Positions 19,172 to 35,951 of a DNA stretch of 36,120 nt are shown here, piece by piece. The DNA lies in IMG/VR virus record IMGVR_UViG_3300033148_001035, positions 1 through 36,120 of that record; one strand, written 5' to 3'. Numbering within the stretch: position 1 is the stretch's first letter; each line of letters begins with the position of its first letter. This DNA is from a virus. Both the position numbers and the translations under genes were made by a program. The notes beneath the pieces were generated by a model, which made no database searches, was not told where the DNA came from, and saw only the letters and a list, made by a program, of their open reading frames with translations.

Positions 19172-19465
19172 ATGTTAAAACTATTAGGATTTCTATCAAG
19201 TTACAGAATCTATATTATTATAGCTACTGTTGCATTTAGTGCAGGTAGTTATTCTGGTTGGAAAGCTTGCAAATTATTAGAAGCCGCAGCTCAAGTAGAA
19301 GCTATAGAAATAATTCATAAAGCGGAAGAAGAAGCTATAAAGCTAAAGAAGAAGCGTGAGGAAGCGCAAGCTAAAAAATATAAGGAGGTGAAGAAGTATG
19401 TGGAAAATAATCCTACTAGGCCTGGTCTTACTGATGATGAACTTAAGCTGTTCAATCTTCACTAA
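19172..19465 (+). CDS. Inner-membrane spanin (Rz-like), 97 aa
   Basis: The N-terminal segment YRIYIIIATVAFSAGSYSGW is a single membrane anchor, followed by a charged helix able to form a coiled coil (EAIEIIHKAEEEAIKLKKKREEAQAKKYKEVKKYV) and a short C-terminal region. This is the layout of i-spanins, which cross the periplasm and meet the o-spanin to fuse inner and outer membranes. A second gene begins inside it in the +1 frame, the classical Rz/Rz1 overlap. The ATG directly follows the holin-like TAA. Confidence 0.8.
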   Translation: MLKLLGFLSSYRIYIIIATVAFSAGSYSGWKACKLLEAAAQVEAIEIIHKAEEEAIKLKKKREEAQAKKYKEVKKYVENNPTRPGLTDDELKLFNLH

Positions 19466-19625
19466 AACTAATGTTACTCCTTCCCTTTTAGAAGAGTGTG
19501 ATGAAAACTTACCTGAGTTAGAAAAAGGTGATACTAATTCTATACTATTGTGGAAAGGTGGCGCAGATTCCACTTACGCAGAGTGTAGGGATGGAAAGAA
19601 AGCATTAATAAAAGCTGTAGAATAA
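19398..19625 (+). CDS. Outer-membrane spanin lipoprotein (Rz1-like), 75 aa
   Basis: It starts inside the i-spanin gene in another frame, 68 bases before that gene ends, behind a near-perfect Shine-Dalgarno AGGAGGTGA (19383-19391). The N-terminus is a short signal peptide, KIILLGLVLLMMNLSC, with a candidate lipidated Cys at residue 18. The lipobox is not ideal, because Asn rather than Leu is at -3. The mature part is acidic with two further Cys (EECDENLPELEKGD, YAECRDGKKA). Overlap, position and signal support an o-spanin. The odd lipobox is the main reservation. Confidence 0.75.
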   Translation: MWKIILLGLVLLMMNLSCSIFTKTNVTPSLLEECDENLPELEKGDTNSILLWKGGADSTYAECRDGKKALIKAVE

Positions 19626-19649
19626 AAAAGGGGCTTGCGCCCCTTTTTT
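19624..19649. terminator. Bidirectional rho-independent terminator between converging halves
   Basis: AAAAAAGGGGC (19624-19634) pairs perfectly with GCCCCTTTTTT (19639-19649) around TTGC: an 11-bp stem, with a T-tract on either strand. It overlaps the last base pairs of the o-spanin stop and lies 7 bases from the end of the minus-strand acidic gene. It should end both the late plus-strand transcript and the early minus-strand transcript. Confidence 0.9.
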
Positions 19650-19655
19650 CTTCGT

Positions 19656-19883
19656 CTAAAAGAAATACCACCACATACCTTCTGCGACTGCTTCAAATAT
19701 ACCATCTATCTCTTCTAGAAACATATCCATATCCGCAGTATTGGTAATGTACGTATTATTAATTACAGTATTATTTACTACACTATCAATATCTAAGTTA
19801 GTTGTACTTGATGAAAAATAAGCATCATCATAAAAATCAAAGTCAATATCATCATTACCTACAAAATCAAAAATTCCACCCAT
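19656..19883 (-). CDS. Strongly acidic small protein with its own promoter, 75 aa
   Basis: No family recognised. The protein has 12 Asp and 4 Glu and no Lys, Arg or His at all. It begins MGGIFDFVGNDDIDFDFYDD, has an Asn/Thr/Val-rich middle (SVVNNTVINNTYITNT) that could be beta strand, then an acidic helix (MFLEEIDGIFEAVAEG), and ends in WWYFF. A strong AAAGGAGAGA ribosome binding site lies 5-14 bases before the ATG, and a consensus promoter lies at 19915-19943, so high expression is likely. The bidirectional terminator follows directly. The charge and promoter recall DNA-mimic proteins such as T7 Ocr, which bind host DNA-binding enzymes. The MGGIF start also recalls small virion proteins. Both ideas are inference. 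Confidence 0.75.
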   Translation of the reverse strand: MGGIFDFVGNDDIDFDFYDDAYFSSSTTNLDIDSVVNNTVINNTYITNTADMDMFLEEIDGIFEAVAEGMWWYFF

Positions 19884-19914
19884 ACTATCTCTCCTTTTCT
19901 CAGTTTATATAAAT

Positions 19915-19943
19915 ATTATATCAAAAAATAGTATGAATGTCAA
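19915..19943 (-). promoter_or_regulatory. Consensus sigma70-type promoter for the acidic 75-aa gene
   Basis: On the minus strand, TTGACA (19943-19938), a 17-bp spacer and TATAAT (19920-19915): both hexamers match the consensus exactly. The start of transcription should fall near 19908, giving a leader of about 25 bases with the ribosome binding site inside it. The promoter lies between the end of nrdJ and the acidic gene, so that gene can be transcribed on its own. Confidence 0.9.
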
Positions 19944-19952
19944 GAACTATTT

Positions 19953-21992
19953 TTACTTTGCTGAACAGACTCCACTAGCACATTCGTCTAGTTCTAATTC
20001 TTCGAAGCTTTCTGTGCCCTCGAAATCTATTTCTTTCAGTGTTTTAATATAGTCATCATATCTATCCTTAGTTACTACTTCTTGAGGTAAATATTCAAAG
20101 CCTAAATCTCTGGCACTAAGTGTTGGGTCATTTCTAAATAGAAAACTTACTCCAACATATATATCCCAATTTTCTAGAATCCAATTTACTATATCATCCT
20201 TTTCAGATATATCGTAACTAATTGTATTTGACATATTCTGATCACAGTAATAAAGCTGTAACTTCTTATATCGTTCTAATTGGTCTATTGCTGATTCTTT
20301 ATTTATATCTAGAGTTTCTGTTGAACCATCTTTTCTTTTTACTTCCACTCTATCAAAATAGTTTCCATTATCTATTGGTAAACAGAATAATATACTTTCT
20401 TTTTCAGATGGGTGTAGTATCCATCTATATCCTGCTGCTTTTAATTTATCAACAAGTGGGTCTCTCTGCCCGAAGTTAACCCAATTAAAGATATAACGTC
20501 CTAGTGCTTTGTGAATTCCTTCCCAAGTATCCATAACTTTAGAAAGTGTTCCACTAGGTTTACCAGTAGTTGTATTTTTAGGTCTTTGTGTACCAAGTTC
20601 TTTTGCCATTTCTTGAGCAGCTTGTGTAGCTACTCTATTTAAGCATTTCCAATCATATTCAGATATATCATCTCTCTGGGCAATACCAGTAAAACTTACT
20701 CCACATAGTCTTAAAAATTCATTGTTTAAATGCCAAGACTCTTGTAGTACTCCGTCCCTAAAATCAACACATGTTTGTCTATAATTAGCTCGTGCGATAT
20801 ATGGCATTATTTCAAATAAGCCCGACATATTATCACTAAACTTAGATACCGCAGTTTCTACTAGATTACAGAAGCCCTTATTTGGTAGTAGTATTTCTCC
20901 ACAAGGATTAACACCACTAAACCAAGGTGCTCGTTTCTTAGCCGTCTCACCATTAATAAAGCCCGGTTCACTACCACCATGTTTTATTATCATATCAAAT
21001 ACTTCTGATAATTGTTTCTTAGTTGGTTTATTAAAGAATACTAATGAGTTATTAGACTGTTGTCTGTGCTTATACCCATCTTCATAACAATTAATCTTAG
21101 CTCTAGCAAACTCTTTCCACTCATCACTTCCGTACTCAACCAATGCAATTTCTGCACTTCGGCGCGAGGACAGCACTGTTCCCAACCAATTACCAATATC
21201 TAGGATATCAATCTTGGTAAGTATCGCTCCAGCTCGTTTATTGAGAATTCCAGCAATAGCTGGATAAGCTCTACTGATTGGCCCATCTCCACTAGATATC
21301 CAACCGTAACCTTTAAGCCGTTCTCCTTCCGGTCTGATTTCAGAGAAGTCAAACACCAAGTTACGCGCTTTGTATTTTCCCGCCAATAACTTACCAATGG
21401 ACTTAGCCCAAGCCTCCGCGGAATCACCAACTCTAATTGTCCAGACACCATCTGTGAAGTGTTCCACATTATGTTCGTTTCCACCTTTTCCTGTTCTTTC
21501 ACTTCTAATCACCTCTATTTCTGGTATAGGTTTTCTAAACCCCGTTAGTGTTCCTTTAGTGGGGGTAAATCCTACACCACATCCTTGTAATAATAACCAA
21601 AATATATCAACTGCATCATAAACTGTTTCAACTTTAGTATGAGCACAGTTAAATTGACTGGCTTCTCTTTTCTTAGATACGCTAGTTCCACCAAGCCATA
21701 AAGTCCTTCCACTTGGTAGAGCTTCTCTCTTTAACATTATGTCTCTAAGTACTTCTAATTCATACAGTTGTTCATCTTTAAGACTCACCCATTCTTGCAT
21801 ATTTTCAGTAACATCATGTAATGGCATATCTCTCAATACTTTATGAGTTAATGCTCTTTCCCACAACCATTTTTGATGGCCTATTACTCTATCTATTGTC
21901 TCAAACCAATCTTCAAATATTAAATTCTCTTCATCTAGTGGTCTATTATATGTTCTACGCGTTATTATCTCTGCTCTTACACTAGGCTGCAT
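19953..21992 (-). CDS. nrdJ: Class II (adenosylcobalamin-dependent) ribonucleotide reductase, 679 aa
   Basis: It reduces ribonucleoside triphosphates to deoxyribonucleotides using a B12-generated thiyl radical. The sequence fits the monomeric RTPR type (Lactobacillus leichmannii enzyme, about 740 aa). Visible residues: Cys116 in SQFNCAHT and Cys375 in NKGFCNL (reducible pair), Cys364 and Glu366 in VNPCGEILLP (thiyl radical Cys and catalytic Glu), and the C-terminal Cys671/Cys676 in CASGVCSAK (re-reduction pair). The internal TTTGKPSGTLSKVMDTWEG loop is also typical. No second subunit or B12 synthesis gene is present, so it depends on cobalamin in the host cell. T5 itself has class I and III enzymes, so this is a replacement or acquisition. 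The start overlaps the preceding tiny gene by 11 bases behind GAGGAAG. No terminator follows, so its transcript probably runs on to 19624. Confidence 0.95.
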   Translation of the reverse strand: MQPSVRAEIITRRTYNRPLDEENLIFEDWFETIDRVIGHQKWLWERALTHKVLRDMPLHDVTENMQEWVSLKDEQLYELEVLRDIMLKREALPSGRTLWLGGTSVSKKREASQFNCAHTKVETVYDAVDIFWLLLQGCGVGFTPTKGTLTGFRKPIPEIEVIRSERTGKGGNEHNVEHFTDGVWTIRVGDSAEAWAKSIGKLLAGKYKARNLVFDFSEIRPEGERLKGYGWISSGDGPISRAYPAIAGILNKRAGAILTKIDILDIGNWLGTVLSSRRSAEIALVEYGSDEWKEFARAKINCYEDGYKHRQQSNNSLVFFNKPTKKQLSEVFDMIIKHGGSEPGFINGETAKKRAPWFSGVNPCGEILLPNKGFCNLVETAVSKFSDNMSGLFEIMPYIARANYRQTCVDFRDGVLQESWHLNNEFLRLCGVSFTGIAQRDDISEYDWKCLNRVATQAAQEMAKELGTQRPKNTTTGKPSGTLSKVMDTWEGIHKALGRYIFNWVNFGQRDPLVDKLKAAGYRWILHPSEKESILFCLPIDNGNYFDRVEVKRKDGSTETLDINKESAIDQLERYKKLQLYYCDQNMSNTISYDISEKDDIVNWILENWDIYVGVSFLFRNDPTLSARDLGFEYLPQEVVTKDRYDDYIKTLKEIDFEGTESFEELELDECASGVCSAK

Positions 21993-34382: not shown

Positions 34383-35126
34383 TTACGCAGATGCGGCAAT
34401 CTTTGCTGCTCTCTTCTCGCCGTCATGATTCTTACACTTCAGACCACGATGAGTCAACATTGTCTTAACACCGCGTGGAGACTTATCAATCTTCTCAGCA
34501 ATGTCTTCAACAGTCATGTCAGTGATATCACCAAGAGCTACGATTGGATCAACTGTATCCTTGCTCTTGTAAACTCTCTGCTTAGGAATTTTAACATCCT
34601 TACCTGCTTCTGTACGTGTGATAGATAGAATCTTACCACGGATTGAATTAACTTCACGACCCATTGCATCAGCGATATCTTCGATGAACTTATCGCCACC
34701 AGCTAATAGACCTAGAAGCTTAGTTTCTTCTGCTTCTGTGTACTTCTTCTCTCGTTCTACTTTCGGGGTTGGCTTAACAAGACCGGTTAGTTCCATTGAT
34801 AGAATCTTACCCTGAATCTGCTTAGTAGTATGTGCACCCTTAAGTACAGTAGCTGCAATTTCAGCATATGTATACTTGTTAGGATTAGCTTCTAAGTACT
34901 TTCTAATAGCAGCTTCATCAGCTTCTGAATAGTTCTTAGTTACTACTTTTGCCATAGACTCTACGGTATGACCCATCTTACGTAGCTTAGCTGCAATAGA
35001 CTTTGTAGTTGTTTCTAGTTCTACTGCTGCTGCTTCTACTGTTGCTACGGTCACAGGTGACTCTTTACCAACGGCCTTTACTAGGGTTGCTTCTCTATCC
35101 GCGTCCCATTTTGGAATATTACTCAT
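34383..35126 (-). CDS. Repetitive HTH/Myb-like DNA-binding protein (T5 D5-like), 247 aa
   Basis: Four consecutive units of 45-55 residues each look like a three-helix DNA-binding domain: starting KWDADREATLVKAV (8-50), NYSEADEAAIRKYLEA (65-115), KYTEAEETKLLGLLAGG (127-172) and VDPIVALGDITDMTVEDIAEKI (192-230). Each unit ends with a recognition-helix-like segment: KSIAAKLRKMG, KQIQGKILSM, NSIRGKILSI, RGVKTMLTHRG. The gene is visibly richer in G and C than its neighbours and has strong regulatory punctuation (coupled start after GGAGA, own terminator), consistent with an abundant protein. In T5 the abundant DNA-binding regulator D5 lies next to the helicase. I recall that order but could not compare sequences. 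Confidence 0.8.
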   Translation of the reverse strand: MSNIPKWDADREATLVKAVGKESPVTVATVEAAAVELETTTKSIAAKLRKMGHTVESMAKVVTKNYSEADEAAIRKYLEANPNKYTYAEIAATVLKGAHTTKQIQGKILSMELTGLVKPTPKVEREKKYTEAEETKLLGLLAGGDKFIEDIADAMGREVNSIRGKILSITRTEAGKDVKIPKQRVYKSKDTVDPIVALGDITDMTVEDIAEKIDKSPRGVKTMLTHRGLKCKNHDGEKRAAKIAASA

Positions 35127-35853
35127 TTATTTTCTCCATAAAATTATCAAAGCTTAATATAGTTATATTATATTGTTCTGCTTTTTTGACTTTTGTGGTG
35201 CCTGATTCGTTAGAAATAAGATAGTCTAAATCTTTAGTTACACTATCCTTAACTGTTACATTAAAATCTAGTAACATTTCTTTAATTTTAGCCTTTGTAT
35301 ATCCCGGCACCTTACCAGATATACAGACTGCTAATCCAGATGTTGTAGGCTCAGACTCTTCAAATTTAATTGGCATGTCTTTATAATTAATATATTGATT
35401 ATTTACCCAATTTACTAAATTGTCAGTAGCCTTTGCACCTAAACCAGCTTTTTTACAAACTTCTGGTGTAATCTCTTCTATAGTGGCTACTACAGAATCA
35501 ATCTTTCCCGAAGCGGTCTTACCGATAAGGGTTATTCCCATACCGTTTAAAAATTTACTTAAGGTAGTTGTTGTACTATTCTGAATTTCAGCATACAACT
35601 TAGTACCTATCTTTTCACCTAGTATACTTATTAAATGTTCTTTATCATATGTGTATAATTCAGGTATACTTTCAATGTCCAACTTTTCTAACGTCTTTTC
35701 ACCTAAACCCATTATTTTCATAGTCTTAACATAGTGCAGTATTGTTTTTAACGACTTAGCACTACATGTCGAACTTCTGCAAAATAACTGGTCATTAACC
35801 ATTTCTAATTTGCTTCCACATATTGGACAGTTAGTTGGAATTTCTATTTTCAT
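35119..35853 (-). CDS. ligB: C-terminal half of a split NAD+-dependent DNA ligase (LigB-type), 244 aa
   Basis: It carries the parts of bacterial LigA that lie after the catalytic core: a four-Cys zinc finger (Cys9, Cys12, Cys25, Cys30; CPICGSKL, LFCRSSTCSAK), helix-hairpin-helix repeats (MGLGEKTLEKL, ILGEKIGTKLYAEI, GMGITLIGKTASGKI) and a C-terminal BRCT domain (LAVCISGKVPGYTKAKI, DYLISNE, about 170-244). The adenylation and OB domains are absent. T5 is known to encode ligase as two genes, ligA and ligB, so this is probably the second subunit, not a broken gene. I use the ATG at 35853 because an upstream in-frame GTG (35892) overlaps a promoter. No Shine-Dalgarno sequence is visible. The 3' end overlaps the D5-like start. 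Confidence 0.88.
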   Translation of the reverse strand: MKIEIPTNCPICGSKLEMVNDQLFCRSSTCSAKSLKTILHYVKTMKIMGLGEKTLEKLDIESIPELYTYDKEHLISILGEKIGTKLYAEIQNSTTTTLSKFLNGMGITLIGKTASGKIDSVVATIEEITPEVCKKAGLGAKATDNLVNWVNNQYINYKDMPIKFEESEPTTSGLAVCISGKVPGYTKAKIKEMLLDFNVTVKDSVTKDLDYLISNESGTTKVKKAEQYNITILSFDNFMEKINE

Positions 35854-35860
35854 TTTATAT

Positions 35861-35889
35861 ATTATCTCATAAATTAATTCGTATGTCAA
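35861..35889 (-). promoter_or_regulatory. Sigma70-type promoter in front of ligB
   Basis: On the minus strand, TTGACA (35889-35884), a 17-bp spacer and GATAAT (35866-35861). Only seven bases separate the -10 box from the ligB ATG, so the predicted transcription start is at or within a base or two of the start codon. It should drive ligB and the D5-like gene up to the terminator at 34334, with read-through into the replication operon. Confidence 0.85.
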
Positions 35890-35951
35890 CACATTTTTTT
35901 AGAGAATTGATTAGTATTAATTAATTCATGTGCGTACGTAACAATTTTCGG

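Follow-up and report, generated by a model that had tools for sequence, protein, structure and literature searches.

T7 Ocr is an acidic early phage protein, and T5 combines the host polymerase with strong near-consensus promoters. A second T7 protein, gp5.9 (pI 4.0), blocks RecBCD by mimicking DNA and is built as a parallel coiled coil (PMC9836394). Phage morons, or accessory cargo loci, are described for prophages (PMC7067206). Here, we describe a phage gene for a 75-aa acidic protein, which resembles each of these systems in some features and departs from it in others. The window, i.e., the whole stretch of DNA analyzed, is 36,120 bases long.

Phage carrying the acidic gene

The virus record has 40,461 bases in all, of which the window covers the first 36,120. 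Record positions beyond the window are given in the numbering of L009; a run of 47 N (L009:622-668; record 36121-36167) directly follows the window end. The phage is known from a metagenomic fragment alone, and its record probably represents part of a genome. A 21.8-kb contig (L108; IMGVR_UViG_3300033153_002570) is identical to the phage across the late genes checked. It stops within the o-spanin gene, short of the acidic gene, and thus does not provide a second copy of its sequence.

Judged by the gene content of both arms, the phage is a divergent, low-GC (34% in the window) T5-like siphophage. The minus arm encodes a D5-like regulator, whose closest homologues are from Vibrio phages of ~113 to 120 kb (one is annotated as "D5 protein"), and a PolA with ~40% identity to its nearest matches, which are from T5-like phages of Enterobacter, Providencia, and Proteus. 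It also encodes a class II ribonucleotide reductase (RNR) and proteins that by eye were assigned from sequence as SbcC/D-like, FEN-like, and dUTPase-like. The NAD-dependent DNA ligase is split over two open reading frames (ORFs) (window 35119-35892 and L009:946-1905); the N-terminal and C-terminal parts each have their own PHROG match, and a small ORF lies between them. T5 has a split ligase too. The plus arm contains tail genes, including that of the tape measure protein, and ends with a lysis cassette of endolysin and spanin-like genes. Inspection of the translated ORFs brought no phage RNA polymerase to notice, and transcription by the host polymerase is therefore assumed.

Just beyond the window, on the minus strand (L009:4066-4502; record ~39565-40001), lies a permuted (two-piece) tmRNA gene with the tag peptide ANDSVYAIAA according to ARAGORN (Rfam tmRNA_permuted, 112.7 bits; gathering score, 47). 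Two-piece tmRNAs are reported mostly from marine and aquatic phages (PMC9004378).

A coding gene for a protein without basic residues

The acidic gene and its surroundings are listed in Table 1. Its product, MGGIFDFVGNDDIDFDFYDDAYFSSSTTNLDIDSVVNNTVINNTYITNTADMDMFLEEIDGIFEAVAEGMWWYFF, has a mass of 8.6 kDa, a computed pI of 4.05, and a charge of -16.5 at pH 7. Counting confirmed what an earlier note on this DNA had stated, namely, that 16 of the 75 residues are Asp or Glu and that Lys, Arg, and His are missing. This composition is rare. Among the other proteins of the phage, only 1 of 9306 windows of 75 aa was free of basic residues, and a basic-free product was obtained from 5 of 200000 mononucleotide shuffles of the ORF and from 0.3% of the shuffles that preserved codon positions. 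Scored by the codon usage of the phage, the frame of the acidic ORF reached a log-odds of +29.4 bits, while the remaining five frames were negative. Codon statistics thus support that the ORF is coding.

Table 1. Features at the acidic gene and at the borders of its slot
Feature	Position in the window	Strand	Basis or remark
o-Spanin lipoprotein (probable), end of the convergent lysis cassette, other slot border	19398..19625	+	
Bidirectional hairpin terminator	19620..19653 (arms 19620-19634 / 19639-19653)	.	Common to the acidic and convergent o-spanin genes
Coding sequence of the acidic orphan (75 aa, with stop codon)	19656..19883	-	ORF and coding log-odds
Ribosome binding site AAGGAG, 7 nt ahead of ATG	19891..19896	-	Read from sequence
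Predicted sigma70-type promoter, TTGACA-17-TATAAT, extended -10 (TG)	19915..19943	-	Sequence match
Perfect 9-bp inverted repeat AAAAATAGT-N13-ACTATTTTT around the -35 box	19924..19954	.	Possible operator (inference)
Class II (B12) ribonucleotide reductase, final conserved replication-arm gene, upstream slot border	19953..21992	-	

Promoter, terminator, and transcript

The perfect consensus promoter and the strong ribosome binding site that had been pointed out for this gene are both present (Table 1). The promoter is the sole exact TTGACA/TATAAT match with a spacing of 16 to 18 bp in the window; dinucleotide shuffles gave an expectation of 0.05, and such a match was present in 5 of 100 shuffles. 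The TG of its extended -10 lies one base ahead of the -10 box. A second promoter, TTGACA-17-GATAAT with an extended -10, is located in the replication arm ahead of a DNA-binding protein gene.

The inverted repeat around the -35 box could be an operator, and therefore the promoter of the acidic gene may be regulated. The chance of such a 9-bp repeat within that interval is ~2%. A shared operator was rejected, since the window has no second exact copy of the repeat and 9 approximate matches versus 10 expected, and the core had no exact match in IMG/VR.

The terminator hairpin was not listed by the pattern scan of the window. It has 15-nt arms with a GC-rich core and starts 2 nt past the stop of the acidic gene, and A/T tracts flank it on both sides, so that it serves both convergent transcripts. 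Thus, the terminator is as immediate as the earlier note had claimed, but it does not belong to the acidic gene exclusively. Its core, GGGGCGCAAGCCCC, is the same in a related contig (L010). The gene occupies the far end of the replication-gene (early-type) arm, likewise in line with the self-contained unit that had been proposed for the end of the early strand.

According to one very improbable reading, the transcript rather than the peptide matters, either as a small RNA or through antisense or interference effects of a strong promoter directed against the lysis genes. Transcription would converge on the spanin genes, and the 284-nt transcript, terminator included, has a fold z of -2.26. However, the terminator separates the promoter from the lysis genes, and the good ribosome binding site and favorable coding statistics argue for a translated product. 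A small-RNA identity was rejected, because the Rfam matches scored far under gathering.

A variable slot between RNR and the terminator

Relatives were retrieved via RNR, endolysin, and FEN, and the slot, defined as the interval from the RNR stop to the convergent terminator, was compared where RNR and a convergent endolysin were both present. On the opposite side of the terminator, the assignment of the o-spanin is based on a weak PHROG spanin match, a lipobox-like N terminus, and the overlap with the i-spanin frame. The slot itself has a GC content of 28% versus 34% for the window.

The acidic gene was absent from the same-neighbor slot in the relatives L113, L012, L010, L109, and L114. The slot is empty in L113 (RNR 76% identical), where the terminator follows a few bases past RNR, and likewise in L012 (RNR 62% identical). 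L010, as well as L116 and L117, harbors a 57-aa gene, and in L010 the conserved terminator core ends the slot. The slot gene of L109 is homologous to the 57-aa gene of L010 (47% over 51 aa). In L114, two genes are present, encoding an acidic-leaning 63-aa protein and an 82-aa protein; the latter shares 53% identity over 79 aa with an 85-aa minus-arm protein of the phage itself (L009:4474-4731). Because of this match to a replication-arm protein, slot genes seem to be drawn from a pool of small early-arm genes.

We also noted that the L010 and L109 genes (L010:8045-8218 and L109:6288-6512) represent a small orphan family of 57 to 74 aa, with the starts YKYNVYDRVKTPL and YRYKLYDRVDTPL, for which NCBIfam gave no match and PHROGs a weak one. 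In L109 to L112, RNR is split by a long in-frame segment (L109:6546-8120, minus strand), which by eye resembles an intein with a homing endonuclease.

No promoter with a match of at least 10/12 was directed at the other slot genes within the slots of L010, L109, and L114; among the occupants compared, the acidic gene alone has such a promoter. Since relatives hold different small genes or none at this place, the acidic gene looks like a swappable accessory gene, and the slot serves as exchangeable cargo space. The variability of this slot is a new result.

The acidic protein is an orphan in the collections searched

In tblastn searches, the acidic protein had no match in 50,697 phage records, at an E limit of either 1 or 10, or in 72,556 plasmids, and a peptide-pattern scan of IMG/VR revealed no relatives. 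There was no member match above threshold in PHROGs, Pfam, NCBIfam, and PADLOC and no sequence match among PDB chains at an E of ≤10. These results bear out the earlier statement that the protein matches no recognized family. Pup (PF05639) was rejected, since it scored 14.9 bits, below the Pfam gathering cut-off of 27, and the C terminus is WWYFF instead of GGQ/GGE.

The sole match in GTDB genomes fell in a DUF6600 protein from a Dokdonella metagenome-assembled genome, within a stretch rich in Asn and Thr. This low-complexity match covers ~25 residues, ends with TVINNTYITN, and lies past the DUF6600 domain (231-343). Membership in DUF6600 (PF20245) was therefore rejected, and the common stretch is best read as convergent low complexity. 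Thus, the Asn/Thr-rich middle, which had been singled out as matching no family, indeed identifies none, but it is not unique, as TVINNTYITN recurs in the Dokdonella protein in an unrelated context.

Architecture of the protein and its possible functions

The N-terminal and C-terminal thirds of the protein each contain 7 acidic and 7 aromatic residues, while the middle third is Asn/Thr rich (12 N/T). In total, there are 14 to 15 aromatic residues, and the GRAVY value is ~0. A single-sequence AlphaFold2 model had a mean pLDDT of 57 and a pTM of 0.27, and the predicted C-terminal helix (residues 49 to 73) was the sole part with fair confidence. Because confidence in the model was low, a DNA-like charge trace cannot be read from it. 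The acidic charges concentrate in the two acidic-aromatic ends and not along a fold. Foldseek with this weak model returned nothing meaningful (best viral match, E of 5.8).

In the predicted helix, seven hydrophobic residues (M52, L56, I59, F63, V66, M70, and Y73) form an a/d heptad without a break (permutation P of ~0.04), which would allow a short coiled-coil dimer. The helix is amphipathic (muH of 0.46), contains few acidic residues, and is interrupted by two Gly residues.

These properties bear on whether the protein is a DNA mimic, probably a helical dimer, that fills the DNA site of a host nuclease, restriction enzyme, nucleoid protein, or RNA polymerase. The pI and the lack of basic residues fit such a role, as does the hydrophobic heptad, for which the coiled-coil architecture of T7 gp5.9 provides a precedent (PMC9836394); moreover, a replicating linear phage genome would require such protection. 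Nevertheless, we consider mimicry unlikely. The last third has only 7 acidic residues and its helix two Gly residues, the number of aromatic residues and the GRAVY value are unlike those of a soluble charge-coated mimic, the low-confidence model presents no mimic surface, and neither PDB chains nor Foldseek yielded a sequence or fold match. Quite unlikely, in our view, is a more specific proposal, in which the protein would represent a new family of compact, basic-free phage proteins, coiled-coil DNA mimics with aromatic caps that bind a host DNA-handling enzyme and stem from an exchangeable replication-arm slot of aquatic T5-like phages.

The highly aromatic ends could also indicate a membrane or structural role. 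A membrane-active or superinfection-exclusion peptide, whose ends (GGIFDFV and WWYFF) enter the inner membrane, with effects on entry, lysis timing, or a membrane protein, would be consistent with the hydrophobic, aromatic C terminus, the amphipathic helix, and the adjoining lysis cassette. It is less likely again, since the protein has no hydrophobic run of transmembrane length and a net charge of -16 without a basic anchor, and its gene lies on the replication arm, outside the lysis operon. As for a minor virion or assembly protein, the start MGGIFDF is also found in ORFs of 1006 and 334 aa (L095 and L099) that apparently encode virion proteins, and the Asn/Thr-rich middle is beta-like. This role is very unlikely, however, because the gene is on the replication strand with its own promoter and not in the late operon, is missing in close relatives with the same late-arm end, and has no PHROG match. 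The start itself was rejected as a signal of relatedness, as other viral contigs with the same start carry unrelated proteins.

Proposed role of the acidic gene

We conclude that the acidic gene is real and well built, an orphan accessory gene of an ordinary kind. With moderate confidence, we suggest that it is a moron-like accessory gene in a variable slot, read by sigma70 and specifying an early binder of a host protein. The host sigma70 RNA polymerase would read the gene from its own consensus promoter once its DNA is accessible, separately from the long replication operon. The resulting monocistronic mRNA of ~280 nt would be well translated and would stop at the shared terminator. The promoter consensus and T5-like biology would suggest high expression and early timing; for the timing, the location in the replication arm also counts. 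We infer that the product acts on a host protein; most likely, it would bind this protein early in infection, in host takeover or counter-defense. Contact would be made via the acidic-aromatic ends and the short amphipathic, possibly dimerizing C-terminal helix. A host-protein binder of a non-mimic sort ranks above DNA mimicry.

Small orphan phage genes with their own strong promoters are a rich source of novel inhibitors directed at host enzymes and defense systems, and the value of the acidic protein is that of a candidate. In addition, the slot, with the RNR stop and the terminator as its limits, offers a defined place for the systematic collection of such genes in a little-studied T5-like lineage.

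Comparison with known systems

Among the described DNA mimics (Ocr, gp5.9, and Gam type), the strong acidity of the protein, with 16 acidic residues and no basic ones, has parallels, whereas its aromatic ends are unlike those mimics. With T7 gp5.9 it shares the small size, a pI of ~4, and a helix with a dimerization-type heptad, but it has no sequence similarity to PDB entries and differs in its Asn/Thr-rich middle, its aromatic ends, and the shortness of its helix. Like Ocr, it is an acidic phage protein; however, Ocr is larger and an acidic helix-rich dimer, and neither the PDB sequence search nor Foldseek with the weak model gave a match to it.

The locus differs from morons in that its terminator is a conserved part of the backbone (also found in L010) and serves the convergent lysis genes as well, that the phage has no sign of lysogeny, and that the base composition of the slot is near the phage's own (28% versus 34% GC). 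In comparison to T5-like (Demerecviridae-type) early units, the phage lineage is divergent and low in GC, and it has a class II RNR as well as a permuted tmRNA. Near-consensus promoters like those of such units lie at the acidic gene and, as TTGACA-17-GATAAT, in the replication arm. As in morons, the acidic gene is small, unrelated to its neighbors, equipped with its own sigma70-type promoter, followed by a terminator, and present here while missing at the same place in close relatives (PMC7067206).
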